64,000 nucleotides of DNA, taken from assembly GCF_000184705.1 (NCBI RefSeq), contig NC_014831.1, positions 744,001 through 808,000 on the forward strand, given 5' to 3'. Of the stretch, positions 1,638 through 18,946 are shown in pieces (the first letter of the stretch is position 1; each line of letters starts with the position of its first letter). The notes beneath the pieces were generated by a model. That model was given only the letters and a program-made list of their open reading frames with translations. It made no database searches and was not told where the DNA came from. The translations under genes were made by a program, and so were the position numbers. This stretch comes from Thermaerobacter marianensis DSM 12885. Lineage in GTDB: Bacteria; Bacillota; Sulfobacillia; Thermaerobacterales; Thermaerobacteraceae.

Positions 1638-3605
1638 GTGATCGGGCTGTTGGAAGCGTTTCGCCGTTTGATGGACAACGTTCGGCCCCTGCCGGCGGAA
1701 GCCGTACCGGTGACGGCGGCCGCGGGACGGGTCGCCGCCGTCACCCTACGGGCCGGGTCGGACGTGCCCGGATTCGACCGGGTGATGATGGACGGCTTCG
1801 CCTGCCGGGCGGCGGACATCGCCACCGCCACGCCGACTCGGCCGGTGACCCTGCGGGTCACGGGCTCGCTGGCGCCGGGGCACGTGCCCCAGGGGGGACC
1901 GGGACCCGGGGAGGCCTGGGAGGTGGCGACGGGAGCGGCCCTGCCTCCGGGGGCCGACGTGGTGGTTCCCGTGGAAGAAACCCGACGCCACGGCACCGTG
2001 GTCCGGGTGTTGCGGGCCTTGCCGGCGGGCCGGCACGTCGCCCCCCGGGGCGAGGACGTGGCGGCGGGGGTCGTCCTGGTAGAGGAGGGCGAGGTCATCA
2101 CGCCGGCGGCGGTCCAGGCGCTGGTGGCGGCCGGCGTGATCGTCGTGCCCGTCCGGCGGCGGCCACGGGTGCTCTTGCTCTCCACCGGCGACGAGCTCCG
2201 GCCGGTGCCGGCCGTGCCCGTGGCGGGCCCGCGGCGGACCCCTTTCGCCCCGGACCAGGCCACCGCCATCGACCTGCCCCTGCCCGCCCCCTTCGTCTAC
2301 AACAGCAACGCGGTTGCCCTGGCGGCAGCGCTGGGGGAGATGGGGCTGGAGGTGGAGGAGGGCGGCGTCGTCCCCGATGATCCGGACGCGCTGCGCCTGG
2401 CTTTCGCCACGGCCCTGGAGGCCGACGCGGACGTGATCCTGACCACCGGCGGGGTCTCGGTGGGGACCCGGGACCGCGTGCCCCACACGTGGCGGGAACT
2501 GCGGGTGCGGCGGGTGCTGGGGCGCATTGACGTGAAGCCGGGCGGGCCGTTCTTCGCCGCGCGTGCCCGGGGCAAGTGGATCCTCGGCCTGTCCGGCAGT
2601 CCCGCGGCCTGCTGGGCGACCTTCCAGGTGCTGGTGCGGCCCTTCCTGCTGCGGCTGGCGGGCAGGAGCCTGACGGTGCGGCCGGTGGTGGACGTGGTGC
2701 TCGCCGAGCCGTTTCCCAAAGCCTCCGGCCACCCCCGCCTCCTCTGGGCGCGGCTGGGGGAAGACGGGCCGCCCTATCGGGCCCGGGTGGTGACGGGAGC
2801 GGGCGGCCGCCTGACCGGCATCGCGGACAGCAACGGACTACTGTGGATCCCGGCGGGGACGCCGCCGTTACCGGCCGGGGCGCGCTTGCGGGCGCTGCGG
2901 CTGGACTGGCCGGAGGACCGGGACGACCTCGACGACCTGCTGGCCGGGGCCGACGGGCCCGAGCCCTGCAAGCCCTGCCCGCCGGTGCCGCCGGCCCAAG
3001 ACCGCGCCTCCTTGCCGGACAGGTCCCTTCCGCGCGCCCCCTTCCCGGGGGACCTTCCCCCGGCGGTGGCGGTGGTGGGCTTGTCGGGAAGCGGGAAGAC
3101 CCACGTGATCGCCGGGCTCATCCGGCGCTTGCGGGCCCGGGGAGTACGGCCGGTGGCCATCAAACACGCCGCCCACGGCTTCGACCTCGACCGCCCGGGG
3201 ACCGATAGCCAGCGGCTGGCCGAAGCCGGAGCGGCGGCCGTCTGGCTGGTCGGACCGGGCGAAGGCGCCGCCCGCCTGCAGGTTCCGAAGGGCGGGGAAG
3301 ATGCCGCTGCGCCGGACGATCCCCGCCCGTGGCTGGAGGCCGCCGCGTTCACGGCGTGGCGGCTGGAGGGGCGTCCGCCCGACCTGCTGCTGGTCGAAGG
3401 GTTCACCCGCTCCCACCTGCCCAAGGTGCTCGTCGGCCGGGGCCGGGACGAACCGGTCCCCGGCGGGGTCATCGCCCGGGTACCCGAACGGCCCGGCGAG
3501 GAGGAGATCGACCGGCTGGCGGCGCGGCTCATCGACTTGTGGAGCCTCGGGAACGACGAGGCCCGACCGGGTCCCGCCGGCCACCGTCCCGTTGACACCG
3601 CTTGA
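1638..3605 (+). CDS. MoeA-MobB fusion protein (molybdenum cofactor biosynthesis)
   Basis: A 655-residue two-domain protein. Residues about 1-430 are MoeA-like (molybdopterin molybdotransferase, inserting molybdate into adenylylated molybdopterin): the MoeA signatures VMMDGFA, TTGGVSVG and GLSGSPAACW are visible. After a Pro-rich linker, residues about 470-655 are MobB-like: a P-loop GLSGSGKT at about 481-488, then an IKHAAHGFDLD segment typical of MobB, the GTPase that helps make the guanine-dinucleotide form of the cofactor. The GTG start at 1638 is preferred because the MoeA pattern (LLEAFRRLMDNVRPLP) begins immediately; the ribosome site is weak (GGGGGA). It lies 50 bases downstream of the PBP gene and may be cotranscribed. 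The stop at 3603-3605 lies between the -35 and -10 boxes of the next promoter. Domain assignments are confident; that both halves act on one pathway is inference from the fusion. Confidence 0.92.
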   Translation: MIGLLEAFRRLMDNVRPLPAEAVPVTAAAGRVAAVTLRAGSDVPGFDRVMMDGFACRAADIATATPTRPVTLRVTGSLAPGHVPQGGPGPGEAWEVATGAALPPGADVVVPVEETRRHGTVVRVLRALPAGRHVAPRGEDVAAGVVLVEEGEVITPAAVQALVAAGVIVVPVRRRPRVLLLSTGDELRPVPAVPVAGPRRTPFAPDQATAIDLPLPAPFVYNSNAVALAAALGEMGLEVEEGGVVPDDPDALRLAFATALEADADVILTTGGVSVGTRDRVPHTWRELRVRRVLGRIDVKPGGPFFAARARGKWILGLSGSPAACWATFQVLVRPFLLRLAGRSLTVRPVVDVVLAEPFPKASGHPRLLWARLGEDGPPYRARVVTGAGGRLTGIADSNGLLWIPAGTPPLPAGARLRALRLDWPEDRDDLDDLLAGADGPEPCKPCPPVPPAQDRASLPDRSLPRAPFPGDLPPAVAVVGLSGSGKTHVIAGLIRRLRARGVRPVAIKHAAHGFDLDRPGTDSQRLAEAGAAAVWLVGPGEGAARLQVPKGGEDAAAPDDPRPWLEAAAFTAWRLEGRPPDLLLVEGFTRSHLPKVLVGRGRDEPVPGGVIARVPERPGEEEIDRLAARLIDLWSLGNDEARPGPAGHRPVDTA

Positions 3606-3621
3606 GCCCGCCGCGTATACT
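3592..3621 (+). promoter_or_regulatory. sigma-A-type promoter for glnR-glnA
   Basis: A perfect -35 box TTGACA (3592-3597), an 18-base spacer and a TATACT -10 box (3616-3621). It overlaps the last codons of the moeA-mobB gene. The predicted transcript starts near 3628, giving an untranslated leader of about 105 bases with three possible hairpins. No clear GlnR operator (TGTNA-N7-TNACA) is seen over it. Confidence 0.8.
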
Positions 3622-3640: not shown

Positions 3641-3684
3641 GCTGCCACAACGGCGTGGCGGCAACGAAACGGGCAACGGCGCCC
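3641..3684 (+). promoter_or_regulatory. ANTAR-type dual-hairpin RNA element in the glnR-glnA leader
   Basis: Hairpin P1 pairs GCTGCCAC (3641-3648) with GTGGCGGC (3655-3662), with one G-U pair, around the six-base loop AACGGC. After an 8-base linker, hairpin P2 pairs GGGC (3671-3674) with GCCC (3681-3684) around an identical AACGGC loop. Known ANTAR targets are two neighbouring stems with hexanucleotide loops having A at position 1 and G at position 4; both loops fit. The 3' side of P2 is also the first four bases of the terminator at 3681-3707, so P2 and the terminator cannot form together. Inference: binding of the ANTAR protein encoded at 6040-6663 stabilises P1/P2 and allows read-through. 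Confidence 0.82.
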
Positions 3685-3717
3685 CTGCAGGTTCGTCCTG
3701 CAGGGGCTTCGTCTTTT
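3681..3717 (+). terminator. intrinsic terminator (attenuator) upstream of glnR
   Basis: A perfect 11-bp stem, GCCCCTGCAGG (3681-3691) with CCTGCAGGGGC (3697-3707), loop TTCGT, followed by the T-rich tail TTCGTCTTTT. It lies after the promoter and before the start codon of the regulator gene, so it can act only as a leader attenuator. Its 5' arm shares GCCC with ANTAR hairpin P2. Confidence 0.8.
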
Positions 3718-3733: not shown

Positions 3734-4126
3734 GTGTATACCATGGCCGTAGCGGAGCGGCTGACGGGACTGACCCAGCGGCAGATCCGGTACTACGAGG
3801 CCCGGGGCCTGATCCGCCTTGCGCGCAGTCCCTCCGGGCAACGCCTGCTGACGGCCAGGGACATCCGGCAGCTGCGTCGCATCCGGTGGCTCTTGCAGCA
3901 GGGGCACAACGTCCACACCATGCGGGTCCTGCTGGCCGCCGAGGGCGCAGGGCCGTGGCCGCAGCAGGGCGCCCCGGAAGGCGCGGTGCAAGGCAAGCCG
4001 CAGGGGGCGGTGCAGGGTACGGCGGCGGGCGCGGCGCCGGGCACGGCCCACGATCCCGCGCCCCGCAGCCCCGCCGGCAAAAGGGGGCGCGGCGGGGCAG
4101 CGCCGCCGGCCGTCGCCGGGCGCTGA
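3734..4126 (+). CDS. glnR: GlnR-like MerR-family nitrogen regulator
   Basis: A 130-residue protein. Residues 1-75 form a MerR-type winged helix with the pattern LTGLTQRQIRYYEARGLI and then SPSGQRLLTARDIRQLRRI, closely like Firmicute GlnR/TnrA. In the known family GlnR represses glnRA when glutamine synthetase is feedback-inhibited and binds its C-terminal tail. Start: GTG at 3734, because AGGAGGTG (3719-3726) lies 7 bases upstream, whereas the ATG at 3743 would be 16 bases away. It is followed 51 bases later by glnA in the classical glnR-glnA order. Oddity: from about residue 78 the tail is a low-complexity Gly/Ala/Pro/Gln stretch with several GAVQG-like repeats, unlike the short autoinhibitory helix of Bacillus GlnR, so the way it senses glutamine synthetase may differ. 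Expression is likely also governed by the leader attenuator. Confidence 0.88.
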   Translation: MYTMAVAERLTGLTQRQIRYYEARGLIRLARSPSGQRLLTARDIRQLRRIRWLLQQGHNVHTMRVLLAAEGAGPWPQQGAPEGAVQGKPQGAVQGTAAGAAPGTAHDPAPRSPAGKRGRGGAAPPAVAGR

Positions 4127-4177: not shown

Positions 4178-5512
4178 GTGAAGAACATGTCCCCCGACGA
4201 CATCAAGGCCGCCATCCGTGAGATGAACATCGGCACCATCAGCCTGCAGTTCACCGACATCCTGGGTACCGTCAAGCACGTGGAGATCCCCGCCAGCCAG
4301 ATCGACAAGGCGCTGGCCGGCGAGCTGATGTTCGACGGCTCGTCCATCGAGGGGTTCGTCCGCATCGAGGAGTCCGACATGTACCTGCGGCCGGATCCGG
4401 CCACCTTCGTCATCCTGCCGTGGAAGACCCGCGAGGGTCGCCGCACCGCGCGCCTGATCTGCGACGTCTACAACCCCGACGGCACGCCCTTCGAGGGCGA
4501 CCCGCGCTACGTCCTCAAGCGCGTGGTGGCCGAGGCCGCGGAGATGGGGTACGTGATGAACGTCGGCCCCGAGCCGGAGTTCTTCCTGTTCGAGCGGCCG
4601 TCGGCGGAACAGGGCCGGCCGGTGACCCTGGATCACGCCGGCTACTTCGACCTGGCGCCCGTGGACAAGGGCGAGGAGGTCCGGGCGGAGATCGTCCTGA
4701 CCCTGCAGGAGATGGGCTTCGAGATCGAGGCTGCCCACCACGAGGTGGCGCCCTCCCAGCACGAGATCGACTTCAAGTACGCCGACGCCGTGACCACCGC
4801 CGACAACATCGCCACCTTCCGCAGCGTGGTGCGCACCATCGCGCTGCAGCACGGGCTGCACGCCACCTTCATGCCCAAGCCCCTCTTCGGCGAGAACGGC
4901 TCGGGCATGCACCTGCACCAGTCCCTCTTCCGCGGCGACCAGAACGCCTTCTACGACCCCAATACCCCGGACCGGCTGAGCGAAGTGTGCAAGCAGTACA
5001 TCGCCGGCATCATGGAGCACGCGCGGGCCATCACCGCGGTGACGAACCCGCTGGTCAACTCCTACAAGCGGCTGGTGCCGGGGTATGAGGCGCCGGTATA
5101 CGTGGCCTGGTCGTACCGCAACCGCAGCCCCATGATCCGCATCCCGGCCAAGCGCGGGCTGAGCACGCGGATCGAGCTGCGCTCGCCCGACCCGTCGTGC
5201 AACCCGTACCTGGCCCTGGCGGTGATCCTCAAGGCGGGCCTGGACGGCATCAAGCGGCGCCTGACCCCGCCCGATCCCGTGGAGGGCAACATCTACCACA
5301 TGCCCCAGGCCGAGCGGGACGAACTGGGCATCGCCAGCCTGCCCGGGTCGCTGGCCGAGGCCATCCAGGCCCTGGAGCAGGATCCGCTGATCCTGGAGGC
5401 GCTGGGCAGCCACGTGGCCTCCCGCTACCTGGAGGCGAAGAAGATCGAATGGGACGTCTACCGCACCCAGATCTCCCCGTGGGAGCTCCAGGAGTACCTG
5501 GCGAAGTATTGA
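4178..5512 (+). CDS. glnA: glutamine synthetase type I
   Basis: A 444-residue cytoplasmic enzyme making glutamine from glutamate, ammonia and ATP, normally a dodecamer. Seen: DGSSIEGF near residue 50, [11 protein letters not shown] (metal and ATP site), [10 protein letters not shown] and a [12 protein letters not shown] segment, and the C-terminal helix ending in EYLAKY. The length is that of the short GSI-alpha class without the adenylylation-loop insert, the class controlled by feedback and GlnR in Firmicutes. Start: GTG at 4178 with GAGGAGG about 7 bases upstream; an in-frame ATG at 4187 is too far from it. It is the second gene of the glnR-glnA unit and so depends on the attenuated promoter at 3592. 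A tandem repeat and a strong hairpin follow the stop. Confidence 0.97.
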
Positions 5513-6039: not shown

Positions 6040-6663
6040 ATGAACAAGCCGGAAGTGATCGTGTTCGGCTTCGACCCCGCAGGTCCCGGGGGCCGCTTGC
6101 CCGGGGCCCTTCTGGATACGGGGTGGTCCATCCTGGTGCAGGTGGGGTGGCCGTCGGAACAGTGGCTTGCCCGCCGGCAAGCTGACCTGTTCGTCATGCG
6201 TCCCGCGGGCATCGAGCGCCCCGCCGAGCGCACCCGGACCCTGGGCCGGGTGACGGGCAGGCCCGTGCTGTGGATGGTGGATCCTGGGGACCCGGAGCCC
6301 GAGGGATTGTGGCAGCATCTGGCCTCCGAGGATTGGCCGGTCTGGGCGTTGCTCCCCGCCGACGCCCCCAAGTGGCAGCTGGTGGCCGTCTGCCGGGCGC
6401 TGATGGGCAGCGCCGGGCGCCTGCAGCAAGCCCGGCAGATGGTGGACGAAGCGATGCGCAAGCTGGAGGACCGGAAGATCATCGAACGGGCCAAGGGCAT
6501 CCTCATGGACCGGTTCGACCTGGCCGAATCCGAGGCGTACAAGCGGCTGCGCGACACCGCCATGCGCCAGCGCAAGCCCTTGCGCGAGATCGCGCAGAGC
6601 ATCATCGAGTTCACCGCCCTGGACGAGACCGGCTACCGCCGCTCCGGACGCGGGCGGCGGTAG
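6040..6663 (+). CDS. ANTAR-domain RNA-binding antiterminator with receiver-like N-terminus
   Basis: A 207-residue protein. Residues about 1-125 resemble a receiver-type fold, but the position where a phospho-acceptor Asp is expected reads ADLFVMRPAG and no N-terminal acidic pair is seen, so it is probably a pseudo-receiver as in AmiR. Residues about 125-145 look like a short coiled coil. Residues about 141-200 are a clear ANTAR domain (RKIIERAKGILMDRF, then EAYKRLRDTAM and REIAQSII). ANTAR proteins bind paired hairpins in leader RNAs and prevent termination, usually as dimers. Start: ATG 6040 with GGGGAGG 6-7 bases upstream. It sits between the two transcription units (glnR-glnA and amt) whose leaders carry matching dual hairpins, so control of both is the natural inference. 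The signal it senses (partner protein, ligand or kinase) is unknown. It has its own spacing from glnA and may be transcribed separately. Confidence 0.9.
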   Translation: MNKPEVIVFGFDPAGPGGRLPGALLDTGWSILVQVGWPSEQWLARRQADLFVMRPAGIERPAERTRTLGRVTGRPVLWMVDPGDPEPEGLWQHLASEDWPVWALLPADAPKWQLVAVCRALMGSAGRLQQARQMVDEAMRKLEDRKIIERAKGILMDRFDLAESEAYKRLRDTAMRQRKPLREIAQSIIEFTALDETGYRRSGRGRR

Positions 6664-6735: not shown

Positions 6736-8067
6736 TCAGTCGCCGGCGCCACGGGCGGACGCCGGGGCCGGTGCCATCACGGGTGTGGCTGGCAGAGGCG
6801 CCACCCCTGGCACCGTCGTGGCGGCGGCGACAAACTCGGGATACGCCACGGTGTCGTGCTCGCCCAGGTCGAGGCCGTGCTCTTCTTCCTGGGGCGTCAC
6901 CCGCAGGCCCATGGTGGCCTTGATCAGGGCAAAGGTGACGTAGGAGGCGGCGAAGGTCCACACGGCCACCGCGACCACCCCGATGAACTGGGCGACCAGC
7001 AGCTGGCTGCCGCCACCGAAGAGCAGGCCCTGTTCCTCATGGAAGAGGCCGACCGCCAGGGTGCCCCAGACGCCGGCGGCACCATGGACGGGGATGGCGC
7101 CGACCGCATCGTCCACGTGCCACCGCTCCAGGAGGGCCGTTCCTGCGAGGACGGCGAGGCCGCCCACGCCGCCGATGACGATCGAGCTGGCAGGGCTCAC
7201 CCAGGCCGTTCCGGCGGTGATGGCCACCAACCCGCCCAGGGTGCCATTGAGGGCGGCCTCCACGTCGGGCTTGCCCTGCTTGAGCCACGCCGCCAGCAAG
7301 GCCGCCAGGGCACCGGCCGCCGCCCCCAGGTTGGTGGTCACGGCGATGCGGGCGATATTGGCATCGGTGGCAGCCAGGGTGCTGCCGGGGTTGAAGCCGA
7401 ACCAGCCGAACCAGAGGATGAAGACGCCCAGGGCCGCGAGGGTGACGCTGTGACCGCGAATCTTGTGGGGCCGCCCGTCAGGGCCGAAGCGCCCCAACCG
7501 GGGACCCAGCAGGATCAAGCCGGCCAGCGCTGCCCACGCACCGACGGAATGCACCACCGTCGAGCCCGCGAAGTCCAGCATGCCGAGTTGGGCGAGCCAT
7601 CCCCCGCCCCAGATCCAGTGCCCGACCACCGGGTAGATCAGCACGGACATGACCGCGCTGAAGACCAGGTAGGAGGCGAACTTCGTCCGTTCGGCCATGG
7701 CGCCCGAGACGATGGTGGCCGAAGTACCGGCAAAGACCGTCTGGAACATGAGGAACGCCAGGAACGGCAGCGACAGGCCGAGGTGGCCGAAGCCGGCCTC
7801 CTGGCTGAACCAGCCCGTCGTCCCGACCAGCCCGGCGGCGTCGGCGCCGAACATCAGGGCGAAACCGACGGCCCAGTAAGCCAGCGAGGCGACGGCGAAG
7901 TCCATCAGGTTCTTCAGGACGATGTTGGCCGCGTTCTTGGCGCGCGTGAAGCCCGCTTCGACCAGTGCAAAACCCGCCTGCATGAAAAAGACCAGAAAGG
8001 CGGCCAACAACGTCCACGCCGTGTTGAGGGCAACCGCCACCGCGTCGGCACTGACGGCCTCCGGCAT
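6736..8067 (-). CDS. amt: ammonium transporter (Amt family)
   Basis: A 443-residue integral membrane protein with about 11 predicted hydrophobic helices, which moves ammonium or ammonia across the cytoplasmic membrane as a trimer. Seen: the early helix FLVFFMQAGFALVEAGF, then TRAKNAANIVLKNLMDF, and the two pore histidines in STVVHSVGAWAAL (about residue 170) and AIPVHGAAGVWG (about residue 324). The length is normal for the family. Start: ATG at 8067, preceded on the minus strand by GGGAGGGAGTGAGG; upstream residues in the same frame are low-complexity. No GlnK/PII gene follows, unlike the usual amtB-glnK pairing. Its leader of about 190 bases carries an ANTAR-type dual hairpin and an overlapping terminator, so it should be switched together with glnR-glnA. 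Confidence 0.96.
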   Translation of the reverse strand: MPEAVSADAVAVALNTAWTLLAAFLVFFMQAGFALVEAGFTRAKNAANIVLKNLMDFAVASLAYWAVGFALMFGADAAGLVGTTGWFSQEAGFGHLGLSLPFLAFLMFQTVFAGTSATIVSGAMAERTKFASYLVFSAVMSVLIYPVVGHWIWGGGWLAQLGMLDFAGSTVVHSVGAWAALAGLILLGPRLGRFGPDGRPHKIRGHSVTLAALGVFILWFGWFGFNPGSTLAATDANIARIAVTTNLGAAAGALAALLAAWLKQGKPDVEAALNGTLGGLVAITAGTAWVSPASSIVIGGVGGLAVLAGTALLERWHVDDAVGAIPVHGAAGVWGTLAVGLFHEEQGLLFGGGSQLLVAQFIGVVAVAVWTFAASYVTFALIKATMGLRVTPQEEEHGLDLGEHDTVAYPEFVAAATTVPGVAPLPATPVMAPAPASARGAGD

Positions 8068-8121: not shown

Positions 8122-8164
8122 CAACAAGCAAAGCCCACCCGCAGCGCTGCGGCTGCAGGTGGGC
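8122..8164 (-). terminator. intrinsic terminator (attenuator) upstream of amt
   Basis: On the minus strand GCCCACC (8164-8158) pairs with GGTGGGC (8139-8133), with an inner stem around GCGC, followed by the T-rich tail TTTGCTTGTTGT (8132-8121). It lies about 65 bases upstream of the amt start codon. Its first four bases, GCCC, are also the 3' side of ANTAR hairpin P2. Confidence 0.78.
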
Positions 8165-8193
8165 TCCGTTGCCCGTAGCGGACGCCGCTGTCC
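8161..8193 (-). promoter_or_regulatory. ANTAR-type dual-hairpin RNA element in the amt leader
   Basis: On the minus strand P1 is GGAC, loop AGCGGC, GTCC (8193-8180). After a 5-base linker (GCTAC), P2 is GGGC, loop AACGGA, GCCC (8174-8161). Both loops have A at position 1 and G at position 4. P2 differs from P2 of the glnR leader by a single loop base. The GCCC of P2 also starts the terminator arm, the same mutually exclusive layout as in the glnR leader. Confidence 0.82.
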
Positions 8194-8265
8194 TGCCCCG
8201 GCCCTGCCTGCGCGCACCCCCGCCTGCGGGGCTGCGGGGCACGCTGCAGGTCGACCTCACTTCCG

Positions 8266-8294
8266 ACGGTAGGGACCTCCTGCCGGGCCGTCAA
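8266..8294 (-). promoter_or_regulatory. probable promoter for amt
   Basis: On the minus strand TTGACG (8294-8289), a 17-base spacer and TACCGT (8271-8266). The -35 box is good and the -10 box moderate. It would give a leader of about 190 bases that includes the ANTAR element and the attenuator. Confidence 0.55.
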
Positions 8295-8586
8295 CGATCC
8301 CGCGTTGACCGCCCCCTGACCATCCCCTGACCAGAAGATGACGGTTGGAGGAGCCTGCAGGAGAGCCGCCGGCCGCCACCCCTGCGGGCCCGCCGCTGCC
8401 GTCCCTCGCCTGGAGCGCTGACGCCTCGGGCGGGCCCGGCCGGAGGGACAGGCACGGCCCAGGGGAGCCCGCGTACCATGGCCCAGGCAGGATGGGCACC
8501 TGCCCGGCCTCGCCCAGGAAGGGCCCTGCCGGCCAGGCTGCAGTTTCCGGCCGGGCCTGCCGCCTGCCAGAGGAGGTCGAAAACCC
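8295..8586 (+). other. upstream region of asnB
   Basis: No gene is seen. A TTGACC at 8305-8310 could be a -35 box for asnB but lacks a clear -10. A 6-bp stem GGCAGG with CCTGCC around a 7-base loop lies near 8487-8505, and GC-rich inverted repeats lie near 8525-8560. These do not match the ANTAR pattern closely enough to call. Confidence 0.4.
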
Positions 8587-14017: not shown

Positions 14018-17000
14018 TCAATCGAGGCCGGAGGCCACGGCCGGGAGCGTCGCCGCGGTCTCCGCCAGGATCCGCTCCCGGGAGGCCCGGGGCACCACCC
14101 ACCAGAAGTGGGGCAGCACGTCCTCCCACCGCGCCAGCAGGTCCCGCGCCCGGGCGCTGCCCGTGCGGCGGGCGTGCAGCACCAGCAGCCCGTGCAGGGT
14201 CTCCCGGGCTGCCTCCAGGGCCGCCGGGCTCGGGACCTCCGGCAGCCGGAAGAGCTCCACCGACGGCCCGTGATGGCGCACCGCCAGGGCACCGTGGGGG
14301 TCGTAGACGAAGGCCGTGCCGCCCGTCATGCCGGCTCCCAGATTGCGCCCGGTGGGCCCCAGGATCACCACCGTGCCGCCCGTCATGTACTCGCAGGCGT
14401 GGTCGCCGGCGCCCTCGACCACGGCCACGGCGCCGCTGTTGCGCACCGCCAGCCGCTCGCCCGCCGCGCCGGCGCAGAACAGGGCGCCGCCGGTGGCCCC
14501 GTACAGCACGGTGTTGCCCACCAGCACGTTGCGGGCGGGGTCCGTGGGGGTCCCGGGCTCCGGCCGGATCACGATCTCCCCGCCGGCCATGCCCTTGCCC
14601 ACGTAGTCGTTGGCCAGGCCCGTCAGCTCGAGGTGCATCCCGCGGATGCAGAAGGCGCCGAAGGACTGCCCGGCCACGCCCCGGAAGGCCAGCTGCAGCG
14701 TGCCCGGCGGCAAGCCCTGATCGCCGTAGCGGCGCGCGATCTCCCAGGCCACCGTGGCCCCCACCGTCCGGTCGGTGTTGCGGATGGTGTAGCTGCGCCG
14801 GACCGGGCGCCGCCGCTGGATGAAGGGCGCCAGATCCGCGGCGATGCGGCGGCCCAGGCTGTCGTCCTCGGGCAGGGGGTTGCGCAACTGGACGCGCCGC
14901 AACGGGGTGGCCGGTTCGTCCCGCCGGGAGCTCTCGCCGGCCGCGCCCTGTACGGCGGGGGGTACGGCGGGGGGCGTCCCTGCCGCCACCGCCGCCGCGG
15001 GAGCCTGCCCCGCCGGGCGCAGCAGCCGGCCCAGGTCGATCCGCTCCGCCCGCGGCAGGGGGGAGGGCCGCTGCACCAGCAGATCCGCCCGGCCGATCAC
15101 CTCGTCCAGGGACCGGTACCCGAGCCGGGCCAAAAGTTCCCGCACCTCCTGGGCCATGTAGAGGAAGTAGTTCATCACGTGCTCCGGCGTGCCGGGGAAG
15201 CGCTGGCGCAGGCGCTCGGCCTGGGTGGCGATGCCCACCGGGCAGGTGTTGGTGTGGCAGGCCCGGGCCATGACGCAGCCCTCGGCCACCAGGGCCGACG
15301 TGCCGAAGGAGTACTCGTCGGCCCCCAGCAGCGCCGCCACCAGCACGTCCCGGCCCGTCTTCAGGCCTCCGTCGACCCGCACCGTCACGCGGCCCCGCAG
15401 GCCGGTGGCCACCAGCATCGCCTGGGTCTCCACTAGGCCGAGCTCCCACGGCAGGCCCGCGTGCTTGATCGAGCTCAAGGGCGAGGACCCTGTGCCCCCG
15501 GCGTGCCCGCTGATCACCACGATGTCCGCGTACCCCTTGGCCACGCCCGCGGCGATGATCCCCACGCCCGTCTCCGCCACCAGCTTGACGGAGATCAGCG
15601 CCTCGGGGTTGGCCTGCTTGAGGTCGTAGATCAGCTGGGCCAGGTCTTCGATGGAGTAGATGTCATGGTGCGGCGGCGGGGAGATCAGCGGCACCCCCGG
15701 CACCGTGTGGCGCAGCCGGGCGATGAGCTCCGTCACCTTGTGGCCGGGGATCTGGCCGCCCTCGCCGGGCTTGGAGCCTTGGGCCATCTTGATCTGGATC
15801 TCCACCGCCGAGGCCAGGTAGGCCGGGGTGACGCCGAAGCGCCCCGACGCCACCTGCTTCACCGCGCTGTTGCGCTCGGTGCCGTAGCGGGCCGGGTCCT
15901 CGCCGCCCTCGCCGGAGTTGGACCGCGCCCCCAGCCGGTTCATGGCCACGGCCAGGTTCTCGTGGGCCTCGGGGGAGAGGGAGCCCACCGACATGGCCCC
16001 GGTGGAGAACCGCCGCACGATGGCTTCCACCGGCTCCACTTCCTCCAGCGGAACCGGCGCCCGGTCGGAGCGGAAGTCCAAGAGGTCCCGCAGCTGGCTG
16101 GGCGGCCGCTGGTGGACCAGGCGGCTGAAGCGGCGGTAGTGCTCGTAGGTGGCGAGGAAGTCGCCGTCCAGCACGCCCGGGCGCGCCCGCACGGCCTCGT
16201 GCAGGGCCCGCACCACCTCCGGGCTGAATTCGTGGAGCTCGCCGTCCTTCTTGAACTTGAAGAACCCGTACCCGTCGGCGGCGGTCTCCGCCAGCGCCGG
16301 GGCGGCGGCCGGCCCGTGGGCGGCGCCACCGGGTGCCGGGGCGGCGTTCCCGGCGGCCTGCCGCCCCGTGTCACCCGACAGCCCGGCTTCCGCGGCCTGG
16401 GGACCCGCGGCCGCGGCTTCCGGCTCGCCGGCGCCCGCTGCACCGGCACCGGCTGCCCCGGCCTCCGCCGGGAACGCCTGCCGGTGCCAGTACAGCACGT
16501 CCTCCGCCAGCTCCCGCAACCGGTTGCCGCCCACCTGGCACGGCGTCCCGGTGAAGCAGCGTTCCACCACCGCCGGATCCAGCCCGATGGCCTCGAAGAT
16601 CTGTGCCCCCTGGTAGGCGTCCAGGGTGGAGATGCCCATCTTCGACATGACCTTCTTGAGGCCGCTCTCGACGGCGCGGACGAAGTTCGCCTCGCCCTCG
16701 GCGCCGCCCGTCTCCCGGGCCACGGCCAGGGCCAGGTACGGGTGCACCGCGGACGCCCCATACCCGATCAGGGTGGCGAAGTGGTGGACGTCCCGGGGCT
16801 CGCCGCTCTCGACCACGATGGACGCCAGGGCCCGCTTGCCCGCCCGCAGCAGGTGGTGGTGCACCGCGCCCACCGCCAGCAGGGCGGGGATCGGGGCGTG
16901 CTCCGCATCCACGCCGCGGTCCGTCAGGACCAGGATGGACGAACCGGCATCCACCGCCGCCTCCGCCCGCCGGCAGAGGTCGTCCAGCGCCGGCTCCAGG

Positions 17001-18946
17001 GCGTCGGGCCCGGTGGCGGGGAAGAGGGTGGGCAGCTCGGCGAGACGGAACCCCGCCGTCCGCCCCAGGCCCCGCAGCCAGGCCATCTGCTGCGCCGTCA
17101 GCACGGGCCCCGGCAGCTCGATCACCCGGGCCTGGGCCGGTTCTTCCACCAGGAGGTTGGGATGGCGCCCCAGCCGCACCGTCAGGGAGAAGACCAGCTC
17201 CTCCCGCAAATGGTCGATGGGCGGGTTCGTCACCTGGGCGAAGCGCTGCTTGAAGTAGTGGTGCAGCGGGCGGTGCACCAGGGAGAGGACGGCGTGGGGC
17301 GTGTCGTCGCCCATGGACCCGTCGGGCTCCTTGCCCGTCTCCACCATGGGCCGGACGATGACCGTCAGCTCTTCCCGGGTCCACCCGAAGGCGGCCAGGG
17401 GAACCAAGGGCCTGGCGGCCGGTGCGGGCGCGGGCCCGGCCGCGGCGCCGTGGCCGGCCTTGGCGGTGCCGTTCGGGACCGGGCCGGCGCCGGCGGCGTC
17501 GACCCCGCCGGGTTCCTCCCCATAACGCACGATCTTTTGCACCCACCGCCCGTAGGGCCGGCGGCTGGCCACCTCCGCCTTGACCTCTTCGTCCCGGAGG
17601 AACCGGCCCGTGGCCAGGTCGACGGCGATCATCTGGCCGGGCCCCAGCTTGCCGTGTTCCTCCACCTGGGCGGGGTCGGCGTCCACCACGCCGGCTTCGG
17701 ACGCTGCCACCACCAGCCCGTTCTTCAGCACGGTGTAGCGGATGGGCCGCAGCCCGTTGCGGTCCAGCCGGGCCCCCACCCAGCGGCCGTCGCTGAAGAT
17801 CAGGGCCGCCGGCCCGTCCCACGGCTCCGTCAGGCAGGCGTGGAACCGGTAGAAGTCCCGCAGCGCCGGCGGCAGGTCGGCCACCTTCTCCCACGCCTCG
17901 GGGACCAGCATCATCAGGGCGTGAAGGGGGTCGCGGCCGGCCAGGACCAGAAGCTCCAGGACGTTGTCCAGCATGGCCGAGTCGGACCCCTCGGGGTCGA
18001 TGACCGGCGCCACCGCCTGCGGCTCGAACTCGGGCCAGCCGGGCACCCGCAGCCACGGCTCGCAGGCGGCGATGCGGTTGACGTTGCCCTGCAGGGTGTT
18101 GATCTCCCCGTTGTGCCCCAGCAGCCGGAAGGGCTGGGCCCGCTCCCACGTGGGCGTCGTGTTGGTGCTGTAGCGCTGGTGAAAGATCACGAACCGCGTG
18201 GCGAAGTCGGGGTGCCGCAGGTCCAGGTAGAACCGGTCCAGGTCGCCGGCCATCAGCAGCCCCTTGTACACCACGGTCCGGGACGACATGGAGGCGATGT
18301 ACGGCTTGCGCAGGCCCGCCGGGGCCGGCCCGGCCGCCGGCCCGGTCGCCGGCGACCCGTCCCGCTCTTCCTGTTGGACGAACGCGGCGGCCCGGCGCTC
18401 GAAGGCGCGCCGCGCCAGGTAGAGGGCGCGGTCGAAGGCCAGCCCCGGCGCCACCCGCGGGCCCCGCACGATGACCGCGTGCCAGAGGGCGGGCCGGCTG
18501 GCGGCCGCGATGGGCCCCAGGACGGCCGGGTCGACCGGCACGGGCCGCCAGGCCAGCACCTCGAGGCCGTGCTGGCGGCAGACCTCTTCGAGGAGCCGCT
18601 GGGCGCGGTCTTCCGCCTCGGGCGCGGTGGGGAAGAAGCAGGCGGCCAGGGCGAAGTCGTCCCCCGCGGGCAGGCGCACGCCGCGGGTGGCCAGCTCCCG
18701 GGTCAGCAGGCGGCGGGGGATCTCGGTCATCACGCCGGCGCCGTCGCCGGTGATCCCGTCGGCGGCCACGCCGCCCCGGTGGCGCAACCGGCGGAGGGCC
18801 TCAAGGCCGAGACCCACCAGGTCGGGGTCCGGGCGGCCGGAGAGGGTGGCCACGAAGCCCACGCCGCAGGCGTCGTGCTCGGGCAGGCGTCCCGGCGCAT
18901 TGCTCCCGTCGTAGGTCGGTCGGTGGTCGCGGGGATTCGGGTGCAT
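14018..18946 (-). CDS. gltB: glutamate synthase large subunit
   Basis: A 1642-residue enzyme that transfers the amide nitrogen of glutamine to 2-oxoglutarate. Seen in order: a short propeptide ending before Cys in DACGVGFVATLSG (N-terminal nucleophile), the class II glutaminase domain, the central domain, the FMN/2-oxoglutarate domain with NSGEGGEDPARYGT, KPGEGGQIPGHKV and CHTNTCPVGIATQ (3Fe-4S cysteines near residue 1225), and the C-terminal GXGXG domain. It is longer than many members because of two Ala/Gly/Pro-rich insertions (near residues 475-510 and 820-890). Start: ATG 18946 with AAGGAGG upstream. The small subunit gene gltD is not next to it and is not in the window. It is driven from a good promoter 350 bases upstream, so it has a long leader that may be regulatory. 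Confidence 0.97.
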   Translation of the reverse strand: MHPNPRDHRPTYDGSNAPGRLPEHDACGVGFVATLSGRPDPDLVGLGLEALRRLRHRGGVAADGITGDGAGVMTEIPRRLLTRELATRGVRLPAGDDFALAACFFPTAPEAEDRAQRLLEEVCRQHGLEVLAWRPVPVDPAVLGPIAAASRPALWHAVIVRGPRVAPGLAFDRALYLARRAFERRAAAFVQQEERDGSPATGPAAGPAPAGLRKPYIASMSSRTVVYKGLLMAGDLDRFYLDLRHPDFATRFVIFHQRYSTNTTPTWERAQPFRLLGHNGEINTLQGNVNRIAACEPWLRVPGWPEFEPQAVAPVIDPEGSDSAMLDNVLELLVLAGRDPLHALMMLVPEAWEKVADLPPALRDFYRFHACLTEPWDGPAALIFSDGRWVGARLDRNGLRPIRYTVLKNGLVVAASEAGVVDADPAQVEEHGKLGPGQMIAVDLATGRFLRDEEVKAEVASRRPYGRWVQKIVRYGEEPGGVDAAGAGPVPNGTAKAGHGAAAGPAPAPAARPLVPLAAFGWTREELTVIVRPMVETGKEPDGSMGDDTPHAVLSLVHRPLHHYFKQRFAQVTNPPIDHLREELVFSLTVRLGRHPNLLVEEPAQARVIELPGPVLTAQQMAWLRGLGRTAGFRLAELPTLFPATGPDALEPALDDLCRRAEAAVDAGSSILVLTDRGVDAEHAPIPALLAVGAVHHHLLRAGKRALASIVVESGEPRDVHHFATLIGYGASAVHPYLALAVARETGGAEGEANFVRAVESGLKKVMSKMGISTLDAYQGAQIFEAIGLDPAVVERCFTGTPCQVGGNRLRELAEDVLYWHRQAFPAEAGAAGAGAAGAGEPEAAAAGPQAAEAGLSGDTGRQAAGNAAPAPGGAAHGPAAAPALAETAADGYGFFKFKKDGELHEFSPEVVRALHEAVRARPGVLDGDFLATYEHYRRFSRLVHQRPPSQLRDLLDFRSDRAPVPLEEVEPVEAIVRRFSTGAMSVGSLSPEAHENLAVAMNRLGARSNSGEGGEDPARYGTERNSAVKQVASGRFGVTPAYLASAVEIQIKMAQGSKPGEGGQIPGHKVTELIARLRHTVPGVPLISPPPHHDIYSIEDLAQLIYDLKQANPEALISVKLVAETGVGIIAAGVAKGYADIVVISGHAGGTGSSPLSSIKHAGLPWELGLVETQAMLVATGLRGRVTVRVDGGLKTGRDVLVAALLGADEYSFGTSALVAEGCVMARACHTNTCPVGIATQAERLRQRFPGTPEHVMNYFLYMAQEVRELLARLGYRSLDEVIGRADLLVQRPSPLPRAERIDLGRLLRPAGQAPAAAVAAGTPPAVPPAVQGAAGESSRRDEPATPLRRVQLRNPLPEDDSLGRRIAADLAPFIQRRRPVRRSYTIRNTDRTVGATVAWEIARRYGDQGLPPGTLQLAFRGVAGQSFGAFCIRGMHLELTGLANDYVGKGMAGGEIVIRPEPGTPTDPARNVLVGNTVLYGATGGALFCAGAAGERLAVRNSGAVAVVEGAGDHACEYMTGGTVVILGPTGRNLGAGMTGGTAFVYDPHGALAVRHHGPSVELFRLPEVPSPAALEAARETLHGLLVLHARRTGSARARDLLARWEDVLPHFWWVVPRASRERILAETAATLPAVASGLD

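Follow-up and report, generated by a model that had tools for sequence, protein, structure and literature searches.

A predicted ANTAR-target antitermination switch in the amt leader of Thermaerobacter marianensis

The leader of the ammonium transporter gene amt of Thermaerobacter marianensis DSM 12885 is, with high confidence, a cis-acting dual-hexaloop ANTAR-target antitermination switch, with the ANTAR protein encoded at 6040-6663 as its predicted reader. The leader lies in a 64-kb stretch of the genome (the window, to which coordinates refer unless stated otherwise). We observed the RNA anatomy of such a switch, an intrinsic terminator exclusive with the second hairpin, conservation with compensatory changes, a single ANTAR protein with intact contact residues, and three sites in the genome. 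ANTAR binding and in vivo antitermination at the amt leader are inferred by analogy with EutV and NitR, and the direction of the nitrogen response, i.e., induction at limitation, by analogy with NitR.

Anatomy and folding of the amt leader

The amt gene (6736-8067, minus strand; Pfam PF00909, 7.5e-128; TIGR00836, 440.8 bits, cut-off 343) codes for an ammonium transporter and has its start codon at 8067. The original prediction placed a hairpin P1, a 5-base linker and a hairpin P2 on the minus strand of its leader, and all of these bases are present at 8193-8161. Read directly, P1 is GGAC-AGCGGC-GTCC (8193-8180), a 4-bp stem with a C:G closing pair under a hexaloop with A1 and G4. The linker is GCTAC (5 nt, 8179-8175), and P2 is GGGC-AACGGA-GCCC (8174-8161), also a 4-bp stem with an A1/G4 hexaloop. 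The bases GCCC at 8164-8161 are shared: they form the 3′ arm of P2 and, as had been claimed, open the stem of an intrinsic terminator. This terminator, GCCCACCTGCAGC-CGCAGC-GCTGCGGGTGGGC (8164-8133, minus strand), has a 13-bp stem and is followed by the T-rich tail TTTGCTTGTT (8132-8123), and P2, the predicted antiterminator, is exclusive with it. The terminator ends ∼55 nt before amt. Since the next gene upstream, coding for asparagine synthetase (8587, plus strand), is divergent, the terminator does not end an upstream gene. A scan of the 64-kb window with Rfam at gathering thresholds gave no match.

A sigma-70-type amt promoter is likely at TTGACG (8294-8289), a 17-nt spacer and TACCGT (8271-8266) on the minus strand; position 8294, the upper limit of the region originally singled out, is the first base of the -35-like hexamer. 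This reading of the sequence is weak evidence: the -10 hexamer is poor, and a promoter consensus scan at amt did not reach threshold. Three genus-mates have the same -35 and a similar -10 region (TATCTT, TACCTT and TACGTT). Just upstream of the -35, three GGTCA repeats with 11-12-bp spacing (8303-8333, minus strand), partly kept in the related genome G003, are a possible DNA-level operator.

The folding energy of the terminator was -27.8 kcal/mol at 37°C, against -12.1 kcal/mol for P1 plus P2, and at 75°C the values were -12.6 and -0.4 kcal/mol, respectively. In the minimum-energy fold of the amt leader P1 is formed, and the P2 sequence is contained in the terminator; the same off state was drawn for eutP (PMC8934654). 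Because the terminator outcompetes P1 and P2 energetically, termination would be the default, and an ANTAR protein would have to hold P2 for amt to be transcribed.

With a terminator so much more stable that P2 would need help to form, and in a GC-rich genome, it could also be argued that the terminator is real and the hairpins incidental. The leader would then be a constitutive or otherwise regulated attenuator, with readthrough set by a leader peptide, Rho, NusA or temperature. We consider this very unlikely: a low intrinsic stability of P2 is a requirement of a protein-dependent antiterminator, loop-matched hairpins and linkers are found repeatedly before amt and glnA in different families, with varying linker and terminator sequences, and their occurrence goes along with that of an ANTAR gene (see below).

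In the proposed switch, RNA polymerase starting at the promoter near 8294 would first transcribe P1, followed by the region of P2 and the terminator. As long as no active ANTAR protein is present, the strong terminator would take in the 3′ arm of P2, and transcription would stop ∼55 nt before amt. Active ANTAR protein would bind P1 and then P2, keep P2 folded and block the terminator, so that amt would be transcribed. The G that replaces A at position 1 of the P1 loop in two other leaders, the liv leader described below and the amt leader of G003, counts against this explanation.

Only ∼55 nt separate the terminator from the amt start, and actinobacterial ANTAR RNAs frequently overlap ribosome-binding sites (PMC8164766). 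Both points would suit an ANTAR protein that acts otherwise, by repression or on translation or RNA stability, as for mycobacterial ANTAR RNAs. However, the amt ribosome-binding site lies outside the element, and an overlap of P2 with the 5′ arm of an intrinsic terminator is seen at the amt, glnR and liv leaders as well as at nearly every related site. Such a route appears slightly less probable again than incidental hairpins, and antitermination is the reading that we follow below.

Three leaders in one genome

A matching element is found on the plus strand before a MerR-family gene and glnA. It is preceded by a promoter, TTGACA-18-TATACT (3592-3621), with 11/12 matches. Direct reading gave P1 as GCTGCCAC-AACGGC-GTGGCGGC (3641-3662), a P1-P2 linker of 8 nt, and P2 as GGGC-AACGGC-GCCC (3671-3684). 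P2 overlaps an intrinsic terminator (3681-3707), whose T-rich tail TTCGTCTTTT extends to 3717. The first gene of the operon (3734-4126, plus strand) had been called glnR; its product is indeed a MerR-family regulator (Pfam MerR_1, 6.9e-14), probably of the GlnR/TnrA type, but the best NCBIfam match is of the TnrA type and, at 37.6 bits, lies far below the cut-off of 140. The second gene, glnA (4178-5512, plus strand), codes for a type I glutamine synthetase (TIGR00653, 582 bits, cut-off 429).

The P2 hairpins of the amt and glnR leaders had been described as one loop base apart with different terminator stems, and this is the case: at loop position 6 amt has A where glnR has C. The two leaders further differ in P1 stem, linker and terminator, leaving only the loops and the P2 stem in common.

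A motif scanner (minimum stem length 4 bp, loops of the form A..G.., a linker of 1-14 nt, and a terminator that begins within the 3′ arm of P2) returned exactly two sites in the window, the amt and glnR-glnA leaders, with scores of 33.5 and 37.9; both are those named in the original prediction. Among 1,000 dinucleotide shuffles 73 had any match, and the top score, 32.8, was below both real sites, a comparison that is descriptive since the scoring was set after the sites had been read.

A covariance model of P1 and P2 (36 positions, built from 9 leader sequences with the linkers masked with N in the seed) was used on the 2.84-Mb genome. Three sites were above noise, the glnR leader (33.4 bits), the amt leader (32.4 bits) and a third leader (30.6 bits), and the next match scored 22.3 bits. 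The large GOGAT (glutamate synthase) gene at 14018-18946 had no covariance-model match above noise. A fourth exact P2-like sequence, at genome position 2272631, was rejected: it lies inside a transposase-like ORF, has neither P1 nor terminator, and scores 16.1 bits.

The third site, at genome position 685,655, is followed at a distance of some 480 nt by a Liv-type ABC-transporter operon. This liv leader is a ∼135-bp copy of the glnR promoter, hairpins and terminator that stops before the genes start, and it spans genome positions 685,604-685,734 (L065:5605-5735). Its -10 is TACACT, and its P1 loop, GACGGC, starts with G. The copy looks recent, since it was not found in the three genus-mates. 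Hence the claim that the leaders match beyond simple duplication stands for amt versus glnR, but not for the liv leader, which is a simple duplicate of the glnR leader. Likewise, the regulon as first drawn correctly included glnR-glnA and amt, but was incomplete, the Liv-type operon being a likely third member on the basis of its leader.

Conservation in related genomes

Amt leaders of this type were found in eight related genomes: G001, G002, G003, G004, G006, G027, G046 and, weakly, G040. Lack of the two hairpins before amt in closely related genomes had been named in advance as evidence against the prediction; the hairpins are present there. The amt leaders of the genus-mates G001 and G002 hardly differ from that of the window. 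The leader of G003 is diverged yet intact, with GGAC-GACGGC-GTCC, GGGC-AACGGG-GCCC and a re-paired terminator. It precedes (L059 / L025) a shortened amt, from which roughly 230 residues are missing by an in-frame internal deletion; this amt is another paralogue than that of the window and is 76% identical to the G004 Amt. Leaders of this type front two Amt paralogues with a mutual identity of only 47%. G004, from another genus of the same family, has elements before both glnR and amt. G006, from another family of the same order, has them before glnA and amt, the P2 loop of the latter being GAGGAT. The more distant class members G027, G046 and, weakly, G040 carry elements before amt, and in G016 the element precedes MerR-glnA-ANTAR genes. 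An ANTAR gene beside that of glutamine synthetase, the order seen in the window, also occurs in G006 and G016.

Since this genome does copy promoter-leader units, as the liv leader reveals, the similarity of the amt leader might be a duplication relic, or due to chance, with glnR-glnA alone under true ANTAR control. The little that the amt and glnR leaders have in common argues against this, and so does the retention of such an amt leader, before one or the other of these two distant paralogues, in G001, G002, G003, G004, G006, G027 and G046. We regard it as the least probable reading of all, and ANTAR control of the amt leader itself remains the preferred one.

Covarying P1 and P2 stems in the amt and glnA leaders of relatives had been expected, and compensatory changes were found. 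In 18 distinct sites 98.6% of the pair cells are paired (slid controls, 32-56%), and 19 cells show double-sided stem changes against 4.8 expected in shuffles, but these counts are partly circular, since hairpins were the reason for picking most seeds, and genomes of the Thermaerobacter type are no independent samples. The C:G closing pair under the loops is invariant in all 18 distinct sequences. Better evidence than the covariation counts is provided by the independent model matches and the eut control. Outside the seed, the model found the amt leaders of G003, G004, G046 and, weakly, G040, the glnR leader of G004, and a site between ANTAR genes of G046. It also picked the eutA-eutB leader of G028, a classical EutV-type target and hence a positive control. 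The amt leaders of G028 and G059 (Amt 70% identical) have no element; in G028 the element sits at eut instead.

The element is found before amt in 8 of the 11 amt-bearing genomes with an ANTAR gene, versus 1/11 without one (Fisher p = 0.0075). The sole ANTAR-less genome with an amt element is G004, whose assembly consists of 580 contigs.

Three side observations were made in these genomes. Loop position 1 is G in P1 of the G003 and G046 amt leaders, P2 of the G006 amt leader, P1 and P2 of the G004 amt leader, and P1 of the liv leader (L025, L014, L011, L022 and L181), and G4 is invariant. In G046 (L213:4963-6303) two consecutive ANTAR genes are separated by an ANTAR element with a terminator, which suggests that an ANTAR gene is itself under ANTAR control. 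G027 (L178) is a metagenome bin titled Thermaerobacter marianensis TT109_55_7; it belongs to another family, its ANTAR protein shares only 33-35% identity with the one in the window, and the species name is probably wrong. Its gene order is glutamine synthetase, ANTAR, element, amt, glnK.

The ANTAR protein and the proposed nitrogen regulon

The presumed reader of the leaders (6040-6663, plus strand) is a 207-amino acid protein with a pseudo-receiver, a coiled coil and an ANTAR domain. Its gene, between glnA and amt, is the only ANTAR gene in the whole genome. Residues Y167, R171, M175, R178 and K147 align with Y164, R168, M172, R175 and K143 of EutV, whose RNA-contact roles, including the stacking of Tyr164 on G4, were described previously (PMC8934654). 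The position of EutV Arg177 is occupied by Pro, as in AmiR, and that of the phospho-Asp54 by Arg54. The predicted structure had a mean pLDDT of 86.6. Its top structural matches were EutV 6wsh/6ww6 (apo and RNA-bound), with Z scores of 13.5/13.3 over 183-185 residues, and the next nearly full-length match was AmiR 1qo0_D (Z 12.6). The phospho-Asp of the EutV type is missing, and the features of the AmiR type, i.e., a receiver fold without phospho-Asp, a coiled coil and a three-helix ANTAR domain, are all found; judged from the model and the alignment, the protein is an AmiR-like pseudo-receiver. The signal must therefore arrive otherwise than by ordinary phosphotransfer to the Asp54 site, which suggests a protein partner or a ligand, as for AmiR.

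No name was returned for the protein by an NCBIfam search, and a contig profile search with the ANTAR alignment gave mostly proteobacterial AmiR/NasT-type loci among the matches listed and told little about amt leaders. Weak second ANTAR matches in G001 and G002 were rejected because they correspond to the C-terminus of MurQ. Neither a promoter nor a terminator was recognised in the 527-nt gap 3′ of glnA, and the ANTAR genes of G006 and G016 are located closely 3′ of glnA. The ANTAR gene may therefore be co-transcribed with glnA, and hence be under its own control.

The proposal that glnR-glnA and amt form an RNA-controlled nitrogen regulon is supported, at the level of sequence and predicted structure, by the single ANTAR gene with the contact residues of EutV, by the EutV-like fold, and by the presence of genomic sites only before nitrogen-related operons. 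Each prediction that was checked in the sequence turned out as anticipated. The same ANTAR protein would act alike at the glnR-glnA leader and probably at the Liv-type leader. Ammonium import, assimilation and perhaps organic-nitrogen uptake would then be co-induced, most likely at nitrogen limitation, as for NitR.

PII (GlnB/GlnK) is the usual nitrogen sensor. It was not detectable in the whole genome (control genomes, 13/14 positive) nor in the genus-mates, and is also missing from many class members. ANTAR as a replacement for PII was rejected, since many ANTAR-less relatives also have no PII; the absence of PII is a hint of ANTAR nitrogen sensing rather than a link. A bolder idea, which we hold to be rather unlikely, is that central nitrogen sensing in this PII-less lineage is done by the non-phosphorylatable ANTAR protein. 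Its pseudo-receiver would read nitrogen status directly or via the feedback-inhibited, adjacent glutamine synthetase, and would set ammonium uptake, assimilation and organic-nitrogen uptake jointly at the RNA level.

The system resembles several described ones. With the EutV-eut leaders of Enterococcus faecalis it shares two A1/G4 hexaloops, a P2 exclusive with the terminator, and a matching protein fold and RNA-contact residues; unlike EutV, which is activated by phosphorylation at D54, the protein of the window has R54. AmiR of the Pseudomonas aeruginosa AmiR-amiE system is also a pseudo-receiver ANTAR protein with a long coiled coil, but it is held by the amide sensor AmiC, whereas the neighbours here are glnA and amt. 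The consensus obtained for NasR by SELEX, with A1, G4 and a C:G closing pair (PMC7496416), also describes the loops. In Clostridium saccharobutylicum the ANTAR protein NitR acts as antiterminator at the glutamine synthetase/GOGAT genes and is credited with their induction at nitrogen limitation (Stutz et al. 2007, as cited in PMC6316151). As in the NitR system, the ANTAR gene adjoins that of glutamine synthetase, with an ANTAR element before the latter; unlike there, amt and the Liv-type operon have sites and the GOGAT gene has none.

Ramesh et al. 2012 (PMC3369931) defined the motif and showed its function in the eut system. For many bacteria they also predicted, in general terms, sites in front of genes for ammonium transporters, PII and glutamine synthetase; among the cases are a regulon of 13 sites in Desulfotomaculum acetoxidans and nitrogen regulons in D. 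reducens and Pelobacter, which share with the present case the dual-hexaloop motif overlapping a terminator. The main text of that paper does not mention the Thermaerobacter lineage by name, and the present sites may be listed in its supplementary hit tables. ANTAR control of nitrogen genes is thus already known, in principle from that 2012 study (PMC3369931) and for glutamine synthetase from the 2007 work on NitR (via PMC6316151). New here are: i) an added lineage, ii) a clear three-leader set for one ANTAR protein, iii) a duplicated promoter-leader unit, and iv) natural G1 loops. The natural G1-loop leaders bear on the suggestion that A1 serves RNA folding and not protein contact (PMC8934654). 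With one ANTAR protein and three leaders, this compact predicted regulon offers a few-part system for asking which signal AmiR-like nitrogen ANTAR proteins read.
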